Assembly (NCBI GenBank): GCA_030998225.1
Contig: JAPYXD010000742.1
Location: forward strand, 1,178,001 to 1,242,000
Reading direction: 5' to 3'
From: Diplolepis rosae
Lineage: Eukaryota; Arthropoda; Insecta; Hymenoptera; Diplolepididae
DNA length: 64,000 bases
Shown here: in pieces, positions 1-12,129 of the stretch
Numbering within the stretch: the first letter of the stretch is position 1
Layout: each line of letters starts with the position of its first letter
The notes under the pieces: model-generated
Told to the model about the DNA's origin: nothing
Databases searched by the model: none
Seen by the model: the letters and a program-made list of their open reading frames with translations, nothing else
Made by a program: the position numbers and the translations under genes

Positions 1-383
1 ATGAAACAAATTGCTATGTATGTTGAGTCTTTTGATGAGGTTTTTATTCGTAATACTGTATATTTTGGATACTCAAATTTATTTTCAGTGCAAATTTCGT
101 TTAATTTTTTGCAATTTTTACTAATAGAGTTTGGTTGGACGTTTTGATTTGTTTCCTTTGATTCATTAATTAAGGCATTATATAAATTTTGTGCTACCTT
201 TTGCTTTAAATTTTCTTTATCTTTGCCACTATTCATTATTATATAATTTTTATATTGTAAATTAACGTGAAATAGACATTCATTATTATTGGTTTGTTCA
301 ATGAGTATCTCATAAATCAGGGGTGGATCTCCTCTTTGTTGAATAATTTTGTTTAGTAAGGTTGTAAAAGGAACATGCGACAT
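1..383 (-). CDS. Double-stranded-RNA-binding-domain protein, partial (runs off window edge)
   Basis: The ORF opens with ATG at 383-381, ten bases downstream of the env stop, and stays open for 127 codons to the window edge. Residues about 5-70 follow the dsRBD plan: an N-terminal helix (PFTTLLNKIIQQRG), the loop and first strand (PPLIYEIL), two more strands (LFHVNLQYKNYIIM), then a glycine loop and lysine-rich second helix (SGKDKENLKQKVAQNLYNAL). The family fold binds dsRNA without sequence preference. The usual KKxAK motif at the start of the second helix is only partly kept, so binding is not certain. Residues after about 75 are not recognised. Position directly after env suggests a late accessory gene. 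An RNAi-suppressor role is inference from dsRBD proteins of other insect viruses. The C-terminus cannot be judged. Confidence 0.6.
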   Translation of the reverse strand, partial: MSHVPFTTLLNKIIQQRGDPPLIYEILIEQTNNNECLFHVNLQYKNYIIMNSGKDKENLKQKVAQNLYNALINESKETNQNVQPNSISKNCKKLNEICTENKFEYPKYTVLRIKTSSKDSTYIAICF

Positions 384-393
384 TCTGAAGATG

Positions 394-1552
394 TTAGATT
401 TGGATAGAGTAGTGGTTTCTACTAAGTTCTTCTTTTAATTCAGAGTGAGGATAAAGAGTTGTGTTTGTATTATTGTGATCTTTACCTGAAGTAGTGTTTG
501 CGTAATACGATGGACTTTTAGGTGCCTCTTTCGAGCTTTGTGGTGCTGAAGCTGTTAGCAGTTCTTGATGACTCTCAGCAGGAGGTCCAGAAGGTCGATG
601 GGTACCTAAGTGTAATAAGAGGTTAGTGACCGAATCCCAGAAGGCGCCTAGTAGATGGAGAGACCATCCAAATAATCTGTGTAGCGCATATCCATGAATA
701 ATGGTATCAGCTATCAATTTAATCCCTCTAATTATTATTATTAATCCAATTAGGCCTGCACTAGTAGTTCCAAAACTTGTAAAAATTGTCCAAAATCTAC
801 CCCATGCGGATTCAGCAATTTTATCAATCACATCTTCATTAAATAAATTCGTTAATGATATTCCTTGATTAATAGTTGGATGTCCTGTTATTTCTCTAGC
901 TAAAGAATTTAGAATCATTGGTTTTTCTGCTGGAAACATAATATGATCTCGCAGTTTATCAAGATCAGATTGAGAATAAATGCCACTTGTTGCTAAGGAT
1001 GAAGGATTTGTGTATTTCCAGGTTGCTTTTGTGAGAGGTTTAACTATAGTTGGTGCTATGGATTCGACAGGATTTGGAAGTAATTTGTACCAGGTTTCTC
1101 CAAAAAGGTACATTGGTGGAAGGAAAGAATTGCAATTTGTTTGGATACCTGATTTTGTTAATATATGAGTTCGTGGAGAAAGGAAAAAGGATTGATTTCC
1201 TCTAAATATTGGTAGTTGTAGATAACATTCTTCAGTTTTGCGATATTTTACTTCAACCGGTATACATTTTACGATATGTACTACTTCTCCTGAAATTACT
1301 GACATATATCCTGGGCCTTTCATTAAATGATATGCAAATTCGTCTGGTGATTGGGTTGCTAAGGTTAATGTATTTCTAAAAACTTGCTGTTCAAGTATGC
1401 ATCGTTGAGTAAGAACATCGTGATAAAGTCTATTTACTTCAGTGCGTATGTGTCGTTCTACATATATAAATTTAGAATTGACGTATGTGAAAATGTCCAT
1501 ATTTTGAACTTCTAAATGTTTATTTTCTAAAAATGAATTCCCAGGTCTGGTT
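394..1552 (-). pseudogene. env: env, C-terminal part of jingchuvirus-type glycoprotein
   Basis: This frame continues the glycoprotein of the preceding ORF after a one-base frame change near 1,555; the first ATG in it is at 1,500. It holds the membrane-proximal half: an extracellular region with several Cys, then a hydrophobic segment (about residues 240-265 counted from that ATG: SAGLIGLIIIIRG) that should be the transmembrane anchor, a second hydrophobic patch, and a Pro/Ser/His-rich tail ending at the stop at 394-396. Chuvirus-type G proteins are class III-like fusion glycoproteins and are known to have been captured by arthropod retroelements. In this copy the gene cannot give full-length glycoprotein without bypassing the frame change. 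Confidence 0.7.
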
Positions 1553-2425
1553 TCAAAAATTAATAATTTTGGATGTTCGGTTTGTATTAAAACGTAACTG
1601 CAAACTGGTTTTCTTTGTTTTTTCAGCTAGTACGAAAGTTATATCCTCAGTCGTTAAAGAATAAAAGGTTTCAGAATTGTCTGTCGTGTTGTCATAGGTC
1701 TTATTTGCTGGTCCTTCATAAATAATTTCATATTTGTTAAAATTACATACGTCATTAGGTAATGTATCCCAGAATGTTTGTCCATATTCTACGTCAGTAG
1801 AGAATGTGTCTGAAAGTGTGCATATTATTCCAGATCCTAATTGAATTTTATTTGAATTTAAATGAATAGTTGCGTAATGTTCTTGTAAAGTTATTTTGAA
1901 TATTGCTTGGACTACGACATTATTCCATGTTCCGTATGAGTCAGAAAATTGTGTACCAGTACAGTCTCCATTAGGTGTTACAGAACCTGCTAAAGTAACG
2001 CTATGAAATGAAGTTTCATTTACTTTTAACTTTGATATCTGAAGAGAAGGGGTTACTAAAAATGTTCCTATTGTGTGCATTTGATTACATTGATCTCGTG
2101 TAACATCATGTATATATTCACTGTGGCCATTTGCTACTATGGAACTGTGAGAATGCATACCACAATGAGAGATGGCGCGTCGAATTTCTATTTTGCATTG
2201 TATTACTTTTGTATTTGAAAATCCAGTTAATTGTAAAAGTTGTATATAAGTTCTTTCAACATGTACTTGAGATCGAGGTAGATCACATTCTCCTACCTCT
2301 AGTAAAGATAATGTCGTAATATTTGATTGATTTGAACCGCAATCGAATCCTATGATGGCGTAGACTGTTGTTATATAGTTGAAGTTGCAAGTGAGCAGTG
2401 CCAAAAGGAAGCCTCGTAATCCCAT
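1553..2425 (-). pseudogene. env: env, N-terminal part of jingchuvirus-type glycoprotein
   Basis: The frame is open from 2,695, but the likely start is the ATG at 2,425-2,423, because it begins a signal peptide (MGLRGFLLALLTCNF) and lies directly after a pyrimidine-rich splice acceptor; codons upstream are the other-frame shadow of the CARD ORF. The mature N-terminus (IIGFDCG, then TLSLLEVGECDLP) and the HCGMHSH block match the conserved Cys pattern of Chuviridae glycoproteins as I know it; several N-glycosylation sites (NQSN, NETS, NKTY, NNTTD) are visible. The protein would be the entry/fusion spike. The ORF stops at 1,553 through a frame change in a T-rich stretch, separating it from its membrane anchor. 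A rhabdovirus-like G is the nearest alternative. Confidence 0.72.
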
Positions 2426-2440
2426 CTCTGGAAAAAGGGG
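2426..2440 (-). promoter_or_regulatory. Predicted splice acceptor for env mRNA
   Basis: On the minus strand a run of Cs and Ts (CCCCTTTTTCCAG) ends in AG three bases before the env ATG at 2,425. Errantiviruses make env from a spliced mRNA, so this is the expected place for an acceptor. A possible donor (CGG followed by GTACGT) lies in the leader near 10,460. Both are pattern calls only. Confidence 0.45.
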
Positions 2441-2544
2441 GTTCCAATTAGCAGCTTGCTTTGTAATATAAGAATAGGAAAATGTTTTATCATTACATAT
2501 GTATATTTTTGAAGTTATTGATTTACTTTTTGTATTTTGCGTTC

Positions 2545-2826
2545 CTAGTTCATTATATCCAACATGTCGGCTATGATAATGTGATTTGATAGCCGTAAAC
2601 TGAGAATTAAATTTTTGTATGCGTCCGGTCCTCTTGTTTTGATTGTTGAAAAAATGTCTTTTATTATTTCTGGATTGTTTAGATTTCTGTTCCATGTGGG
2701 GATATTACAGTCGTCTTTCTTAAAAATTCCAGTTTGAATTAAGTATGGCCAGAGAGCTACCATGTCGATAAAACAGGGAACTATTTCAATGAGATCATCT
2801 ATGCGTTTGCGATGAATTTGTTCCAT
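2545..2826 (-). CDS. CARD-domain protein (caspase recruitment domain), retroelement-encoded
   Basis: A 93-aa ORF from ATG at 2,826 to the stop at 2,545 is almost entirely one death-fold domain. The residues follow the six-helix CARD plan: HRKRIDDLIEIV (helix 1), MVALWPYLIQTGIF (helices 2-3), NNPEIIKDIFSTI (helix 4), TRGPDAYKNLILSL (helix 5, with the T-R-G-x-x-A-[YF] signature of initiator-caspase CARDs), and a final helix around IADMLD. CARDs form homotypic contacts in apoptosome-type complexes such as Dark-Dronc in insects. There is no protease, BIR or kinase domain, so this is a CARD-only protein and could act as a decoy; that role is inference. It lies 241 bases after integrase and overlaps the env open frame in another phase. 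The reading frame is intact in an element whose pol and env are broken. Confidence 0.75.
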   Translation of the reverse strand: MEQIHRKRIDDLIEIVPCFIDMVALWPYLIQTGIFKKDDCNIPTWNRNLNNPEIIKDIFSTIKTRGPDAYKNLILSLRLSNHIIIADMLDIMN

Positions 2827-3067
2827 TATATCTGGAATAATGTGTTATGTCTGAAAATTCATTTTTATTTTGTTTTATATATTTTTTATTTTATATATAA
2901 AACATATATTTTCATAAAAAAAAAAATTTATTTTTTATATTTTTACTATTTATCGACAAAATAAAATTTCTATATCTTATTTAAGTTGTATATGTATATA
3001 TATAAATATATATATATATTTTTTTTTATAATTAAGGTACAGATATTTTGTTTCTATTTTTATTTAT

Positions 3068-4438
3068 TTACTTTTGTACTTGCACATGTGAGCGTTTTAG
3101 TCTATTAATGTGGACAACAGTAGGTTTGCCTTTATAGCTTATTTTGACATTCCCTTTTCCTAACACTTCCAATATTTCATAAGGCCCTGTATAATGGCTG
3201 TCAAGTTTTTTAATTTTTCCTCCTTTTAATAAAAACACGTAATCTCCAATTTTTACTTCTAAAGGACTTATTTTTTTGTCATAATATAATTTCGATTTTT
3301 CTTTTGCTGAAATAAGATTTTCTCTTGCTTGTGTTCGCATTTCATGTAGTTGTGTTACGAAATTAATTAAATAATCGTCATATGTTTGTAATTTTTCTTG
3401 TTGTGATAAAGGTTCACTGGAAGGTTCACGAGCTAGTTTACCAAAAACCAATTCATAGGGTGTGCATTTTGTGCCTTCATGTACACTAGTATTATATGAG
3501 AACATTGCTAGTTCAAGCCAATCATCCCATTCTGAATTTTTTGCAACAAATTGTTTGAGATATTCTCCTAAAACATGATGTGAACGTTCTAATGACCCGT
3601 TTGATTGAGGGTGAAATGCTGTGGTACGAAATTGTTTAATTCTAAAACGTTTTGCCAATCTTTTTAATAAATTACTTAAAAAATCTCTGCCTTGGTCAGT
3701 AAGTACTCCTTTCGGTGATCCAAATATGCAAATAAATTTTTTCACGAAAGCATCTGCTATCGTACTAGCTTGGTGATTAGGAAGAGGTATTGCTAAAGAA
3801 TATTTGGTAAAATTGTCTTGTATCGTTAGAATATATAAGTTACCAGATTTTGTTTCAGGTAGTGGACCAACAATGTCCATTGATATTTTTTCAAAAGCAG
3901 TAGTGGGTGTGTCAGTGATTACCATAGGGTTTTTTGTTTTGACTCTGATTAATTTTTTCAGTTGACATTGTAAACAGCCTTGAATATATTTTTGAATGTC
4001 TACTTTCATATTTTCCCAAAAGAATTTTTGGCGAATTCGGCTATAAGTTTTTGTCACGCCTTTATGGACTACTAATGCTGAAGATTGATCTTCTTAAATT
4101 AAATGAGTTCGTTGTTCCTTTGTTTGATATTGCGTTATTCCATTGCAAACTATAATTTTTGTAGTTGAATTTGAAAAAATTGAATCGAAAATTGATTTCA
4201 CTTCTTCCCAAGGTATATGATTAATTCTGGAAGTTTTTGATATACTAATAGATCGTAATTTAAATTTTTGAGATAATTCATGTAATGAATGAATTGATAA
4301 TTTTATATTATTTAAAGTTTCAGATAAATTATCTTTAGTTTCTTCTTCAATTGGAAGTGCAAAATGGTAGTAGTTTCCTTTTTTAATCTCTTTTGCTATC
4401 CCCCTTTTGTAAATTTTTAAATTTTGGTAAAGTTTCAC
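3068..4438 (-). pseudogene. pol: pol: integrase, interrupted by one stop
   Basis: Two stretches of the same frame (4,438-4,094 and 4,057-3,068) are separated by an in-frame TAA at 4,095-4,097. The zinc-binding segment (a His-rich start around the stop, then CLQC) is followed by the DDE core: Asp in MDIVGPLP, Asp in LTDQGRDF and Glu in SNGSLERSH, the last two spaced 35 residues apart as in retroviral integrases, then a C-terminal basic domain ending KRSHVQVQK. It would insert the cDNA into the host genome. The first 100 or so residues (after the frame change near 4,400) are a region common to insect gypsy pol between tether and integrase. Confidence 0.85.
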
Positions 4439-5648
4439 GTTTTTCTAAAATTTTTGATCCGTTGTCGCGAGGAGTTCCATTTGTTGTAACAAAATATGCA
4501 TAATTATCTTTTCGCATAGTTAATTGATCGCGACATTCAACTAAATTTTTCTTTGTTATAATTTTTTCTGTTTGAGGGTTTATAGGAGGAGGTTCTGGGG
4601 GTGGACGATTATAATTATCATGATCTTTATCGATTTTTTCACAATTTATTTGAGATCTTCGGTTTAATCTCAAATTTTCTTCAAAATAAGGCTCTTCAAA
4701 TTCTTCTTCCAATTTTTCTTCTTGGTTTTCTTCAAACTTCTTATCAAAATTTTCCTCAAGATTGTCTTCAAAATTTTCTTCAAAATTCTGTTCGAAATTC
4801 TTTTCAAAATCGTCTTCAAGATCATCTTCAAAATTCTCTTCCCAATTTTCTTCATAATTTTCTCCATCATTTCCTTCGTGTGAGGTTTCAATGTCGTTGA
4901 TTTCATCTTCTGAGGTTGAAAAATAATTCTCACTTTCTTCACTTTCAAATTCATTAATATTTTTTGGCTTCTTGGCATTCTTCTTCTTTTTATTTTTGGC
5001 TTGAGTTTGTTTCAAATAATCTAAATAATCAGGATCAGAGTCGGAATCTGATTCTACTTTTGTTCGGCTTCCCTTTTGCACATTTATTTCTGGTAATTCG
5101 TTTTCAAACATTTGTTTTCTTGGCCTACCTCTCTTTCTTTTTGTTTGAGAGGGAATATTTTTCAAATTTGTAAGTAGATTTTTTCTTGGCCTACCTCGTG
5201 GTTTTTTCATAAGAGGTTTAGAAGAAAAATTTTCGTCTAATTTTTCTTGAGTTTCGTTTCGATTCAAATTTTTTGCTTTTTCTTGCTCTATTCTCTTTTG
5301 AGCTCTCGTAGTAATAGTTTTCCATGATAAATTTTCGTATTTTTTGGAAAACACTGGACTTAATAAAAATATTGTCATAAAAATAAGTCTTGAAGCCATA
5401 TTTTTGAATAAATTTGTGTATTTTAAAATATTCTTACCAATCTCACTAAATAATTCTTCACTAAGAAATTCCTGGAAATATTCTGGGATTTTTGAGTCGA
5501 TATTTAATATTTGGGCTTCCGAAATTTCGCTAAAACGATCTACGTCGTCTGGTACGATTTCTGGATTCAAGTTTCTTCGTTTTGAAGGTCTTACCTCATT
5601 TTTAGAGTTTTCTTGTTTCTTTCTTGTAAAAGTTTTCTTTGAAAACAT
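4383..5648 (-). CDS. pol: pol: long tether with AT-hooks and acidic repeat, between RNase H and integrase
   Basis: About 420 codons sit between RNase H and integrase in a frame offset from both neighbours (overlaps at about 5,640 and 4,400, each with an A or T run where the frame changes). Two AT-hook cores, KKPRGRPRK near residue 149 and RKRGRPRK near 171, should bind the minor groove of AT-rich DNA. A Ser/Asp patch (ESDSDSDPD) follows, then a low-complexity block (residues about 260-325) built on repeats of ENFE/ENLE/DNFE. The C-terminal end (CRDQLTMRKDNYAYF) looks conserved rather than random. Typical gypsy tethers are much shorter. A chromatin-targeting role is inference. Confidence 0.7.
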   Translation of the reverse strand: MFSKKTFTRKKQENSKNEVRPSKRRNLNPEIVPDDVDRFSEISEAQILNIDSKIPEYFQEFLSEELFSEIGKNILKYTNLFKNMASRLIFMTIFLLSPVFSKKYENLSWKTITTRAQKRIEQEKAKNLNRNETQEKLDENFSSKPLMKKPRGRPRKNLLTNLKNIPSQTKRKRGRPRKQMFENELPEINVQKGSRTKVESDSDSDPDYLDYLKQTQAKNKKKKNAKKPKNINEFESEESENYFSTSEDEINDIETSHEGNDGENYEENWEENFEDDLEDDFEKNFEQNFEENFEDNLEENFDKKFEENQEEKLEEEFEEPYFEENLRLNRRSQINCEKIDKDHDNYNRPPPEPPPINPQTEKIITKKNLVECRDQLTMRKDNYAYFVTTNGTPRDNGSKILEKRETLPKFKNLQKGDSKRD

Positions 5649-7839
5649 TTTTTTCTTGGGAAGTCATAAAAGTATCATTGGCGTCAACTTGTAAATATCT
5701 TGATTTCTCTTTGTTATCATCAATAGGGTTTCTTGAGAGAGCGTCTGCATTTACATTCATTTTTCCTGCTTTGTAAATTACATCAAAATCATATTCTGCG
5801 AGTTTCAGTCTCCAACGTGAAACTCGTGAACAAGGGTCTTTAGAATTTTGAAACCAAACTAGAGGTTTGTGATCAGTCACTAAAGTAAATTTTCTCCCAT
5901 ACAAATAAGGACGAAAATGAGTTACACAAAATATTATAGCAAGAGCTTCTTTCTCATATGTATCATATTTTTTCTCAGTATCACTTAGACTACGTGAAGC
6001 ATATGCTATTGGCTTATCTTTACCTATTTTACCTTGTGATAAAATACCTCCTACTGCAAATCCTGAGGCATCTGTTGTGAGTATAAAAGGTTGAGAAAAA
6101 TCAGGTCGTTGTAAAAGTGGTTCTTCACATAATTTTGCTTTTAAAATTTCGAAAGCTGCTTGTTGTTTTTCTGTCCAATTAAAAGGTGTATCTTTTTTCA
6201 GAAGTAGATTTAAAGGACTTGCAATTTTTGAAAATCCATCAATAAATCGTCTATAATATCCTGCTAAGCCTAAAAATTGTTTAACATTTTTCTGTGTTTT
6301 TGGGACTGGAAAGTTTTTTACAGCTATTATCTTTTTTGGATCTGGACGTACTCCATTTTTATCAATTATATGACCTAAATATCCTACTTCAGGTCGTAAA
6401 AATTCGCATTTGTCTGGTTGTAAGTGAAGATTTGCTTTTCTAAGTCTTTCTGCTAAATTGTTAAATTTAATTTCGTGCTCTTCTAGAGTATTTGCATATA
6501 TAACTATGTCATCGAGATATACAAAAAGTTCCGTTCCTATTAATCCAGTTAATGTTAAATCCATTAATCTTTGAAATGTGGCAGGTGCAGTTTTTAAACC
6601 GAAAGGCATTCTATCGAATTCGTAATGACCGTGAGGTGTAGAAAACGCGGTTTTATGCGAGTCTTTTGGATCCATTTTTATTGGGTGAAAACCGGTAGCT
6701 AAATCAAACACTGAAAAATATTTTGCTGATCCTAGAGAATCAAGTATATCGTTTATATTAGGTAAAGGATACGAATCGCCAATTGTTTTTTCATTTAATT
6801 TACGAAAATCAAGAACCATTCTCCATTTTATTTTTCCTTGAGAATCAGGTTTTTTAGGAACTATCCACACTGGAGTGTTATATGGTGATTGTGAGGGCTT
6901 GATTATTTTATTTTTTAATAATTCATCGACTTGTCTTGTAATTTCTTCCTTGTGAACTGGGGGAAATCTATATTGTCTTGAAAAAATTGGAGCGTCATCT
7001 ACAGTTGGAATTGAATGTTGTAATACATTAGTAGCTTCAAGTGGTTCTCCTGGGATTTGAAATCTGTCTGCATTATTTTTAATTAATTTTTCTACATGTT
7101 CATATTCATCTTGATTTAAATGGTCTAATCGAAGAAGTTTTTTAATACATTCTACTCTGTCTTCGTCTGTTACATTATAAAATTTGCATGAGTTAATTAG
7201 AGAATTGTCAGTTTTTAGAAAGTTATTTAATATTTTACTTGATAAATCTTCGTTATTTGTTTGTTTGAAATTAATTAAATTTTCAATTTGTTTATAGCAT
7301 TCTTGTTCTTCAAAGTCTTCTAAATTAACTAATGGGACGGATAATGTAATTGGGATTTCATTTGTGTTTGCAAATTTTAAATAAGCTTTTCCTCTGTGAT
7401 TTTTTACAACTGCGTCACCTACGTAGACGCCATCTTGGATATGAAATCGAGGTACATACCCTTCACTCTTTTCTGTATTTTTTATATTAACATAAAATGT
7501 TGTAACTGTTCGAGCTGGAATAGTAAATGTATTGGTAGATTTAAAAGGGTAACAGTGGTTCTCAATTTCTAAGCATTTTGAAGTATAGTTTATATTCACT
7601 CTATTATCTTGAAAAAATTCTGATCCCAATACTCCATCTTCTTCTACTGGGACTTCATTCGGAATAATGTTAAATATTGTTGGGTAACCAAAAATGTTTA
7701 TTTTTACTTGTCCTAATGTGTAAAGTGGTAAATCATTAATTCCTGTAAGTTTTAATACGTTTTGGCTATTTATTGGTACTTCAGGGTTGAGAACCTTTTG
7801 TTTAATTAAATTTCGAGCAGCACCAGTATCAATCATCAT
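5602..7839 (-). CDS. pol: pol: protease, reverse transcriptase, RNase H
   Basis: The 745-codon stretch begins MMIDTGAA, the aspartic-protease active site, but the open frame reaches back to about 7,950 and overlaps the end of gag in the -1 phase, so pol is probably made by frameshift. RT motifs are in order: LDFRKLN, FSVFDLATGFHPI, FDRMPFGL, YLDD at residues 441-444, and LGHIIDKNG. RNase H follows (TTDASGFAVGG, then YEKEALAI, then TDHKPL) and ends with a chromodomain-less NADALSR junction. Order and motifs are Ty3/gypsy. The frame is lost at an A-run near 5,645. Confidence 0.92.
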   Translation of the reverse strand: MMIDTGAARNLIKQKVLNPEVPINSQNVLKLTGINDLPLYTLGQVKINIFGYPTIFNIIPNEVPVEEDGVLGSEFFQDNRVNINYTSKCLEIENHCYPFKSTNTFTIPARTVTTFYVNIKNTEKSEGYVPRFHIQDGVYVGDAVVKNHRGKAYLKFANTNEIPITLSVPLVNLEDFEEQECYKQIENLINFKQTNNEDLSSKILNNFLKTDNSLINSCKFYNVTDEDRVECIKKLLRLDHLNQDEYEHVEKLIKNNADRFQIPGEPLEATNVLQHSIPTVDDAPIFSRQYRFPPVHKEEITRQVDELLKNKIIKPSQSPYNTPVWIVPKKPDSQGKIKWRMVLDFRKLNEKTIGDSYPLPNINDILDSLGSAKYFSVFDLATGFHPIKMDPKDSHKTAFSTPHGHYEFDRMPFGLKTAPATFQRLMDLTLTGLIGTELFVYLDDIVIYANTLEEHEIKFNNLAERLRKANLHLQPDKCEFLRPEVGYLGHIIDKNGVRPDPKKIIAVKNFPVPKTQKNVKQFLGLAGYYRRFIDGFSKIASPLNLLLKKDTPFNWTEKQQAAFEILKAKLCEEPLLQRPDFSQPFILTTDASGFAVGGILSQGKIGKDKPIAYASRSLSDTEKKYDTYEKEALAIIFCVTHFRPYLYGRKFTLVTDHKPLVWFQNSKDPCSRVSRWRLKLAEYDFDVIYKAGKMNVNADALSRNPIDDNKEKSRYLQVDANDTFMTSQEKNVFKENFYKKETRKL

Positions 7840-7958
7840 GTGTGTTGGGTTTTTTAAACCTTCCGTTGATATTATAATTGATGGAATTGAAGTGGACTTT
7901 GAAATATTTATTGTTGTTGTTGTATGATCGTTAGAATTGGATGCCAGTGGTTCTCGAT

Positions 7959-9824
7959 TTATGCTTTCCTCAGTGCACCCGTGCTGGGGAGAGCTTTGGA
8001 GTTTTCCTGATGAGCTGTTTGTGATTGGCTATTTGGTCGTATCTTGCAGTCTCGTACTAAATGACCGGGTTTTTTACAATAATTGCAAACTACTTCAGTA
8101 TAATTTGAATTTTGTTGATTATTATTATTTTGTAAAAACCTATATTCATATGGTTTATTTCGATTTTGAGACTGTCCTAAGTTAAAGTTTTGATACTGTC
8201 CTGGATTCCATTGTCTATTATTATTATTAACATTATTGTTATTATTGTAAAAATTTCTAGGAAAATTGTTATTATTGTTGTGTCTTTGTTGTAAAACATT
8301 ATTATTATTGTTTTTATAATTATTATTTCTATTTTGCAAATTATTATTGTTATTGTTATTAAAATTATGATTTTTATTTCTTAAAAAATTGTTATTCGAA
8401 AAATTATTGTAATTGTTTCTTGCAAAATTATTATTATTATTACTTCTTTGACCATTGGAATTACTATATCCTTGTTGGTTAGGACGCAACAAAAAATTTT
8501 TTTGTTTATTATTAAAAACTGCATCTTGAGCTTTACTTAAATGAAAACATTTTTCAGTTGTGTGACCTGGTTTTTTACAAATTAAACAAATAGTTTTGTT
8601 TTCAAGTGCTACGTTAAATCGGGTTGTTTTGTTATTTTTATTATTAGATGATTCGTCACTTTTTGAATAATCCATATTTTTATTTCTTCGTAGTGCGGAA
8701 TTTGCAGCTAATCTTCGTTCTATATCAATACTGTCGCTAATAACTTCTTTAAAAGTATCCTTTTCTTCAACACGAATTTCTAACTCAGGACGCAAACCGC
8801 GTATAAAACATTGAATTACGTCTTTTTCAAGGTTTACTTTAAAATTATTATCTACCTGACCATTATTATTGAGCCTGTGAGCATCTTCGATTTTGTCGGC
8901 AATTTCTTTTATCCTAGCAGCATAGGAAAGTACATTTTCTCTTTCCCACATAAATGTATTACCTAATTCTCCCTGTAACTGGTACACGCATTTCGCAGGG
9001 GCATATACTCTTTTCAATTTTTCTATCAATTCTTCTATTGTTGTATAAGTAGAACCAAAAATGCATTTTCTGGCTTCTCCAGTTAATTTACCTCTTAATA
9101 GCCTTGCGAGGTTTTCTTGAGCTGCAGGTGTCGGTAGCATTGCCTTTGCCTCCATGCAACCCTCAATAAAATGTGACAATGGGAGGTTACTTCCGTCAAA
9201 CAATGGGACCACCTCTAGCGCGTCGCGTAAGGATACCTGCTGGCTGTTGGGTATGACCACGGCCATCTCTTCGTTATTTACTCTTACGGGATTATCCTGA
9301 TTTATGGCTTCTGTGTCGCTTTTGTCGTCGTCGCTATCGTTGTTACTAATTATAGATTCGTGTGCCAATGAGGTTTCCAATCTTTCTTTCAAAGTTTTAT
9401 TATCTACTGTTATTACTGTTGAGCTTAGCAAATTGAATTCGTCAAAATAAGATAATTCATTCGTTAGAGTTTGATCTTGATTACTGGATCCTGTTACAAT
9501 GCTTAAATCTGGACAGAAACTTGAATGAAACCCGCTAGTTTTTTCTGAATTTTCACGTGATATATTTTGATTATTAATTAGAGTCTTGTCTAAACTTGAA
9601 TTATCTAACTTAAGAGTGTTATCTAATTCTTGTTCTGTAGGGATTGGATCAGGGATATTTTGGCATTTATTATCAGTTGAATATTCTCTATTTCTAATTG
9701 GTTTTATTTTTAAATTACCCTTTTGATTCAAATCTACTATTTTTGCAAGCTGACTATCGTGTTTAGCTTGACTACGTGTTATAACTTTCGGGGTAGATTC
9801 TAAAGGGATATTTGGTTTTGACAT
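7959..9824 (-). CDS. gag: gag: capsid and nucleocapsid polyprotein
   Basis: A 621-codon intact ORF starts at ATG 9,824, the first in the transcript after the leader, and ends at 7,959. The N-terminal third is Asn/Ser-rich; the middle (LEVVPLFDGSNLPLSHFI onward) is the Ty3/gypsy capsid fold; two CCHC knuckles, CLICKKPGHTTEKC and CNYCKKPGHLVRDC, mark the nucleocapsid. Between the knuckles lies a long Asn-rich tract coded by AAT/AAC repeats (roughly 8,220-8,460), which is unusual for gag and probably grew by slippage. The protein forms the particle and packages the RNA. Pol overlaps the 3' end in the -1 phase. Confidence 0.9.
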   Translation of the reverse strand: MSKPNIPLESTPKVITRSQAKHDSQLAKIVDLNQKGNLKIKPIRNREYSTDNKCQNIPDPIPTEQELDNTLKLDNSSLDKTLINNQNISRENSEKTSGFHSSFCPDLSIVTGSSNQDQTLTNELSYFDEFNLLSSTVITVDNKTLKERLETSLAHESIISNNDSDDDKSDTEAINQDNPVRVNNEEMAVVIPNSQQVSLRDALEVVPLFDGSNLPLSHFIEGCMEAKAMLPTPAAQENLARLLRGKLTGEARKCIFGSTYTTIEELIEKLKRVYAPAKCVYQLQGELGNTFMWERENVLSYAARIKEIADKIEDAHRLNNNGQVDNNFKVNLEKDVIQCFIRGLRPELEIRVEEKDTFKEVISDSIDIERRLAANSALRRNKNMDYSKSDESSNNKNNKTTRFNVALENKTICLICKKPGHTTEKCFHLSKAQDAVFNNKQKNFLLRPNQQGYSNSNGQRSNNNNNFARNNYNNFSNNNFLRNKNHNFNNNNNNNLQNRNNNYKNNNNNVLQQRHNNNNNFPRNFYNNNNNVNNNNRQWNPGQYQNFNLGQSQNRNKPYEYRFLQNNNNQQNSNYTEVVCNYCKKPGHLVRDCKIRPNSQSQTAHQENSKALPSTGALRKA

Positions 9825-10824
9825 TGAGTCATTATAAATTTACAATATTTTGTATTGAGCGTTGATTGTTTATTGTTATTTTAAATTTGTTTATAACAAT
9901 AAAAAAAAACTATATATAAAATTTGTTTTTTAAAAAAAATAAAATGAATTAGTAAAATTTATTTTTAATTTGTTTATTTATTTTTAATAACAATATAATT
10001 TGAAATGAAATTTGTATTTCGTCATTTGAAAATAAAATAATGATATAAAAATATAATTATTTCAAATATTCAAATTAAATAAATAATCGCTCAATTGTTT
10101 GTAAATTTATAATTTTTAATAATAAATTTCTTAAAATAATAAAATATTTTTCTTTACCAACTGCATGTGCCCTTTATGTAAAATTAAAATAATTTATTTT
10201 ATTTATTTATAAATTGTTTATAACAATTAAACAAATTTGTTTATAATAATGATCATTCGAAATATTCATAAATTATTTTTATTATATTGGAAAAGTTAAC
10301 TTAAGTGCAAATCTTTGGACAATTTTTTTGTTTGCAAATAAAAATATTTTGTTCCTTAACAGAGTTAGAATTAAAGTTATAAACAATACAATCACAAGCA
10401 CTTCGAACTTTGCCCTACCCAATGATCGCAATCAATGGTGACCGTTCAACGTACCCGAAAGGGACTTATGCTCTCGTGTGCTGTTTTTTTTTTGTTTGTT
10501 TTAACTTAAATCAAAACTTAGTTAACAAATTAGAATAATTTTTTAAATAAGATAAGTTACTTAATCACTTAGGTTAGCCTCAAGGTCAGATCCCTGCGTG
10601 ATTTTTCAAACTTATTTTATTTTATATAATTTATATAAATTATAAAATTTCAAAGAAATGACTTGTTTATTAAATCATTAAGGTTAGCCTCAAGGTCAAA
10701 TCCCTTTGTGATTTAACAAATCTATTTTATTGAAATTTTAAGTTTTAAAGTTGAAATAATATTTGATAATCATTTATTTATTTATTATTAAGAACCAATG
10801 TGTTCAATTTCAATTGACTTGTGT
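9825..10824 (-). other. Retroelement leader (5' UTR) with a direct repeat
   Basis: This AT-rich stretch separates the primer site from gag and has no ORF. Two copies of a unit containing GGTTAGCCTCAAGGTC lie at about 10,560-10,625 and 10,668-10,735, roughly 107 bases apart. It may hold the packaging signal and the env splice donor (candidate near 10,460); neither can be confirmed here. Confidence 0.5.
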
Positions 10825-10842: not shown

Positions 10843-11129
10843 GAAAAAAGGAAGTATGTTACGTCACAAGTACGTAAATACTTACTTTGATCGAAGATTC
10901 CTCGTTTTAAGTTAGGATCGAATGATCCTCTCTTAGGGATGAGGATAAGTCAATGAAAAGTACACAATGATTAGTAAAGTAATACAAATTGAATTTATTT
11001 AAATTAACACTGATATAAACAAGGTTAAAATTTTACAATGATTCAAACAATGGCACAGGGAATAGGTAAAGAATAGAGAGAATTTTCGGTACCTTTGTTG
11101 AGTTGTGAATAGTCCCTTTTTTATGAATG

Positions 11130-11262
11130 ATCCTCACAGGTGTGAGGGAGAGAGAAAGATTCTTCCACTGGTGCGACGAAGACAGCAATAGGTATCCCAC
11201 TGGTGTGAGGAAGACAGAAACAAATATCCCACTGGTGTGAGGAGGACAAGAATAGTTATTTC
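11130..11262 (-). repeat. Tandem repeat inside the LTR
   Basis: Four imperfect units of about 36-40 bp share the core CCACTGGTGTGAGGAAGACA. They lie downstream of the TATA box, so in transcribed R/U5 rather than in U3, and could be binding sites or simple slippage products. Confidence 0.7.
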
Positions 11263-11440
11263 ACTCTACACTGACTCTAAGATCCTTTCAAAGATTGAAA
11301 GTACAATCAGAGAATTTACGACACGTTTCTTCGGAAAACTGAACTAAACACGTATCTCACGCTGTGAATCCTTTTAAGATTTTAGAAATTTCCCGCACTT
11401 AATTTTGCTCACAAGACTAGTTTTCCCTTGGCGGCGTGTC

Positions 11441-11449
11441 CTTTTTATA
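11441..11449 (-). promoter_or_regulatory. LTR TATA box
   Basis: TATAAAAAG on the minus strand, about 170 bases into the LTR, with a start of transcription expected about 25-30 bases further on. No other TATA-like motif in the LTR is as good. Confidence 0.6.
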
Positions 11450-11618
11450 TTATATTTTTTGGTGACGTCACGCGTTGCGCAGTCTCCCGCTGCGTGTGAC
11501 GTAGTTATACCTCTCTTTTCAATAGGTGGTTTTCTCTCTCTTTTAGTAATTTCCCCAGATTTCTCTCTAGACCTAGCCTATGCCTATAGTACATTCTAAT
11601 GCGTCGCGGGACGTGACA

Positions 11619-12129
11619 CATCAATGGAACTTTTCTTGATTCCCACCCTATTGGAAGAACATTTTCTACAAATATTGAGTCTGTAAATGTATACTGTGCG
11701 TTGGCGTTACAAAATTGTCAATGTAAAAATTGCTTTTCCAGTAGAAATTAATGCGCAACAATAACAAATTGAATAATTACTATTCTTCATATGTTTCATG
11801 CACAAATATGTCTATTAATTTTACAAGAGAGATTAGAAAAACAATTAAAAGTACAAGAATTGTAGGAAAATCTATTAGCCTGTTATTATGTAAAATTGTT
11901 TTCTTATGATTATTTTATTCATTTAATATTACGCCAATGAAATTGAAGTTCATGAAATTAATTTTTAGAAATATGTAAAAGTAATAATAAGCAATAGCAA
12001 TGCCATGTTTTGAAGGAATCAATTTTGGATTTAACCAAGTTTTTTCTCTTCAATGTACCAAGTTACAACGTCTATTAATTCATACATGTAATCAACGATC
12101 CTAATATTTTTTAAATCTCTATTATTAAC
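11619..12129. other. AT-rich sequence without recognised features
   Basis: No ORF, repeat or RNA gene can be supported in this half kilobase next to the retroelement LTR. Confidence 0.5.

Follow-up and report, generated by a model that had tools for sequence, protein, structure and literature searches.

A 64,000-nucleotide stretch of the Diplolepis rosae genome (contig JAPYXD010000742.1, positions 1,178,001 to 1,242,000; here called the window) carries part of a provirus that includes a gene for a stand-alone caspase recruitment domain (CARD). We consider it likely that this open reading frame (ORF; 2545..2826, minus strand) of 93 amino acids (aa) serves a gypsy-class endogenous retrovirus (ERV) as a CARD-only accessory gene, taken from the CARD of a host Dronc-type initiator caspase by way of a spliced mRNA and acting most likely as a decoy. 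Homology, predicted fold, absence of an intron, selection on the frame, and position in two element lineages support this directly; expression, a binding partner, and an anti-apoptotic effect are what we infer from there.

The CARD ORF runs on the minus strand from ATG (2826-2824) to TAG (2547-2545), a length of 93 codons, with TRGPDAY at residues 64 to 70. It comes after the integrase ORF (4093-3068) and before an ORF for a chuvirus-type env, whose stop-to-stop frame (2704-1553) overlaps its end. A preliminary description, made from the letters of the window alone, had reported an intact 93-aa ORF between integrase and env; the frame and the location hold, but "env" was incomplete, as the element has a second env gene after this one. 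We searched the 757.7-Mb assembly (G000) for copies: out of 1,175 first-look candidates, 150 were scored, ranked by protein similarity and hence biased toward intact copies, and the CARD frame was free of internal stops in 143, which argues against a chance ORF. Stops interrupt the frame in the other 7 scored copies and in 5 of the 56 loci that we read, and diverged relatives still hold open 93-aa forms.

The element gene encodes a CARD of Dronc type, homologous to that of the host but lacking the host intron. Aligned without gaps to the Dronc-type CARD of its own genome, the element CARD is identical at 45 of 90 positions (E = 1e-32), compared with a maximum of 17 identities in 20,000 shuffles; 43 of 90 positions are identical in P0097, whose CARD continues into a Peptidase_C14 domain. 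A first AlphaFold2 model, built from 34 similar sequences, was poor (predicted local distance difference test score, 62), and its fold matches were mostly CARDs. The confident model is a six-helix bundle that can be superposed along its entire length on known CARDs; with such a bundle and a CARD relationship found, the refuting outcome named in the preliminary description (neither of the two) did not occur. Fold matches of the model include filament structures of MAVS, CARD9, and NLRC4, as well as 3j9k, titled as the Dark apoptosome in complex with Dronc CARD. The layout is CARD-only, as had been described: a stand-alone CARD in a virus-like element.

The window copy scores 15 bits against PF00619, below the Pfam gathering cutoff of 23.9; among similar sequences (alignment A1), 27 of 34 members match this family at E ≤ 1 (best E = 1.3e-5), and the relatives P0064, P0070, and P0084 exceed the cutoff. 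The full CARD pattern with TRGPDAY that was read from the letters stands on the identity to the Dronc-type CARD and on the confident model, but not on the Pfam score of the window copy alone. With the single CARD sequence, phmmer matched nothing among PDB sequences beyond a WD-40 protein and a designed one; with a CARD profile, two designed helical repeats (E = 2.4e-4 and 0.012) outranked Dronc CARD (E = 0.8). NCBIfam had no match for the element CARD, and one scan of a viral contig database, from which records near the genome of the window may be excluded, found no relative.

Searching the genome for caspase domains, we obtained eight matches on four contigs. The CARD exon was not found within pieces of 9.5 to 10 kb around the four caspase loci but lay farther upstream: the best match to a host-like exon, P0079, was a CARD exon ∼12 kb upstream of the caspase domain on contig C95, on the same strand. 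As a single exon compared with PDB sequences, this caspase match was closest to caspase-2 and caspase-4 (E = 3e-6), followed by caspase-9 (E = 1.6e-5); none of the best 60 of its 129 PDB matches is named Dronc. To judge by strand and distance, the CARD exons and the caspase domain on C95 presumably form one gene, a reading on which P0097 bears by joining the same CARD type to Peptidase_C14. A 159-base intron, bounded by GT and AG, separates the two exons that encode the host Dronc-type CARD; the element CARD is intronless.

The genome also encodes a host CARD-only protein of 101 aa (L052; 1256-1650, G000:C395), again from two exons; its 89-base intron matches that of the host Dronc-type CARD in position. 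The 3.1 kb around L052 had no match to those other parts of the element that we searched for. Its relatives in Belonocnema kinseyi (LOC117174601; 77% identity) and Leptopilina boulardi (LOC127278982) are both uncharacterized, and L052 may represent a cellular regulator of the CARD-only kind among gall wasps and parasitoids. The element CARD is 49% identical to L052, 52% to the Belonocnema CARD-only protein, and 48% to the Dronc-type CARD of its own genome. We rooted a 34-row CARD tree on P0097, leaving fly Dronc out; in it, host CARD-only proteins form a clade with support of 99/98 and element-type CARDs one of 90/83, and the two are joined at 96/83. The element-type clade has 26 rows, of which four were seen inside elements (the window copy, L053, L057, and L079) and 22 come from databases; two further database rows, P0101 and P0106, fall near Dronc and not in this clade. 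An earlier tree with fly Dronc, a long branch, was weak and placed element-type and database CARDs together at 85/76. On the origin that we propose, the element CARD would descend from the CARD of a host Dronc-type initiator caspase, either directly or via a host CARD-only duplicate, and would have been captured as a spliced mRNA during reverse transcription.

The same ORF was sought in related elements and found, including in one copy of a second lineage (L079), whose integrase is 73% identical and is followed directly by a CARD with 57% identity. Downstream of this copy (L079 and L080), we saw no env of the type described here. On our reading, two database proteins that are not in the CARD tree, P0052 and P0055, combine integrase-like pieces with a CARD; another, P0049, carries an env domain.

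The CARD frame is under purifying selection. Our sample consisted of 56 loci, 49 of which were used (25 distinct, with the last two codons cut); those left out have a stop (L054, L058, L062, and L063), are partial (L064 and L072, the latter also with stops), or are diverged (L060). The ratio of nonsynonymous to synonymous polymorphism (pN/pS) was 0.317 in the CARD frame and 1.53 and 1.23 in the other two frames of the same DNA, so that the comparison across copies suggested in the preliminary description came out in favor of a maintained gene. Columns with a minor letter in at least three distinct rows numbered 2, 2, and 18 at codon positions 1, 2, and 3. Relative to the row of the window, variants present in at least three rows were 14 synonymous to 9 nonsynonymous, against sites of ∼57 to 216 (P = 3e-5), whereas those in a single row were near neutral (24 to 57; P = 0.055); the two classes, neither of which counts variants present in exactly two distinct rows, differ with a Fisher P value of 0.013. 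Although drawing the sample by protein similarity biases it toward conservation, the contrast of shared and singleton variants is made within the sample. Such a pattern is that of a gene under selection while its element replicates, with decay following insertion.

Without a protease domain, the element CARD would occupy the CARD of the adaptor Dark or join Dronc CARDs; recruitment and activation of Dronc would then be blocked, and death of the infected cell would be delayed. Dark is the known partner of CARDs of the initiator-caspase type and, because the element CARD is of the caspase side, would be its likeliest partner. Selection has kept the gene intact, probably because it would stop infected cells from killing themselves.

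It is unlikely that the captured CARD acts instead as an agonist or scaffold, nucleating Dronc or another CARD protein so that caspase activity below the lethal level, in gonad cells for instance, aids release or transmission. Such a role would fit the polymerization of CARDs in known assemblies (the MAVS, CARD9, and NLRC4 filaments among the fold matches) and the nonlethal roles of Dronc in insect gonads. Against it, the host itself retains a CARD-only gene (L052, with relatives P0057 and P0094), and the CARD-only proteins described in the accessible portion of PMC4457926 are inhibitors or decoys. We are equally doubtful that the protein acts on a CARD pathway other than apoptosis, such as an immune or scaffold pathway: while the element CARD is as close to host CARD-only proteins as to the Dronc-type CARD, its homology is to the initiator-caspase CARD type, and the title of 3j9k pairs the Dark apoptosome with just such a CARD.

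That the product is a virion or assembly protein, with the fold kept and death-domain signaling lost, seems very improbable. A small ORF between pol and env would suit this, as would the residues that vary in some copies, but K63, T64, G66, A69, and Y70, around the helix-5 signature, are at least 90% conserved down to ∼50% identity; this is weak evidence, because fold and binding would explain it equally well. A functionless passenger, whether chance ORF or decaying pseudogene, is scarcely credible: although some copies contain stops, the selection pattern (pN/pS, the codon-position bias, and the synonymous excess among shared variants) rules out both, and open 93-aa forms persist across diverged relatives.

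The CARD ORF lies within a provirus of 17,762 bp (C414:1171857-1189618) bounded by identical 762-bp long terminal repeats (LTRs). The 5′ LTR (10857..11618, minus strand, as are all features below unless stated) is 100% identical by blastn to the other LTR, which lies outside the window (G000:C414:1171857-1172618), and the 4-bp target-site duplication CATC (11619..11622, no strand) is also found beside that LTR. With the ORF inside such a provirus, a domesticated host gene in the window is ruled out. Judged by its Pfam domains and their order, the element is a gypsy-class insect ERV; we take the Pfam types of its reverse transcriptase, RNase H, and integrase to be marks of gypsy rather than BEL/Pao. 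A gag-like ORF of 626 aa with a CCHC zinc knuckle (7959..9839; zf-CCHC_2, E = 1.4e-4, and zf-CCHC, E = 4.8e-4, both below cutoffs) is followed by the gypsy-type reverse transcriptase and RNase H ORF (5602..8028; RVT_1 and RT_RNaseH over cutoff), which has a weak protease match (gag-asp_proteas, E = 0.074, below cutoff). Between RNase H and integrase lies an acidic/basic ORF with AT-hook-like GRPRK motifs (4383..5663; no Pfam match at E ≤ 1); such motifs also occur in the second lineage (L079, 4279-4998, minus strand), and they mark a possible candidate for a chromatin tether. The integrase ORF (3068..4093) has an H2C2 zinc finger and rve core over cutoff and the p58 C-terminal domain just below. 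In the window copy, pol is spread over separate ORFs by frame changes and a stop.

The chuvirus-type fusion glycoprotein (env-G) is split by a frameshift in this copy into an N-terminal part (1553..2704; PF24664, E = 7.9e-88) and a C-terminal part in another frame (394..1626; PF24664, E = 6.7e-151); by coordinates, the two share a frame in four of six other copies. Downstream are three ORFs (3-434 of the window and L031 2934-1524), of which the first, a double-stranded RNA (dsRNA)-binding-motif ORF continuing past the low end of the window (3..434; dsrm PF00035, E = 5.3e-6, above cutoff), and the third (dsrm, E = 9e-4, below cutoff) have a dsRNA-binding domain (dsRBD). The stop between the first two was seen in the window copy and in none of the six others. 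Because the PDB sequence nearest to the first ORF is Loquacious (E = 3.8e-4), it may encode an antagonist of RNA interference (RNAi) or dsRNA sensing. Beyond the window, the same provirus has a second env of the Baculo_F type (env-F; E = 3.1e-23; L031 1539-1 and L044 5599-5183), two Cys-rich ORFs with no Pfam family above cutoff (L044 4848-4438 and 4361-3867), and, before the 3′ LTR, an ORF with a dsRBD and a CCHC zinc knuckle (L044 3518-3048; dsrm, E = 9.3e-7). All six other copies keep the order CARD, env-G, dsRBD ORFs, env-F, and Cys-rich pair, and this single gene order rules out two nested elements as the source of the two env genes; the last ORF was found in five, as the piece fetched for the sixth ends before its position. 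These copies are young and similar because they were picked from the top of a similarity-ranked list.

Stand-alone viral CARDs are known from iridoviruses and ranaviruses (GIV-CARD and FV3 064R), and by description the element CARD resembles them; GIV-CARD, of 91 aa, inhibits apoptosis according to the accessible portion of PMC4457926. Those proteins come from large DNA viruses that infect fish, amphibians, and turtles, whereas here a reverse-transcribing insect element carries a CARD of Dronc type. Host CARD-only proteins (ICEBERG, INCA, and COP; here, L052, P0057, and P0094) likewise consist of a single CARD without protease, but L052 has an intron and belongs to the host, whereas the CARD gene of the element is intronless and mobile. 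With errantiviruses, the element shares gag-pol, an F-type env (present in insect ERVs according to the available part of PMC12992720), and the 4-bp target duplication; it differs in its 17.8-kb length, extra ORFs, and second env of chuvirus type. Anakin also has a chuvirus-type (type III) glycoprotein but with a BEL/Pao pol (PMC7642597, in the part available). The accessible text of PMC10084718 (2023) reports no clear gypsy capture of such a glycoprotein, and that of PMC13172572 notes that gypsy elements can carry type III glycoproteins, so an env of chuvirus type is not in itself novel for a gypsy element; in the accessible parts of this literature, we did not find such an env together with both a second env and a CARD. 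Bdelloid rotifer LTR elements have captured non-env genes as ORF3s (GDSL esterases and exonucleases), but the available portion of PMC5408684 lists no death-domain protein among them. Our literature search, whose coverage excluded many subscription papers and preprints, turned up no report of a retroelement that carries a CARD, in line with the earlier remark that standard gypsy elements and errantiviruses are not known to have such a gene.

Whether the element lineage is a complex retrovirus with a counterdefense set (a Dronc-type CARD against apoptosis, dsRBD and zinc-knuckle genes against RNAi or dsRNA sensing, Cys-rich accessories, and a pair of unrelated fusion glycoproteins, combined in a single 17.8-kb provirus that recently spread to many copies in a cynipoid wasp) we judge to be evenly balanced. 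If so, it would be the first retroelement with a captured apoptosome domain, as far as our literature search shows, and would make it testable whether insects deploy Dark-Dronc apoptosis against ERVs, a question hard to pose without a dedicated viral antagonist. It would also suggest that gypsy-class elements become complex retroviruses by acquiring genes from hosts and unrelated viruses.

Just upstream of the CARD ATG are two splice-acceptor-like sites (2832..2857; TTTTCAG at 2857-2851 and TTCCAG at 2837-2832), which may serve a subgenomic mRNA as its 3′ splice site.
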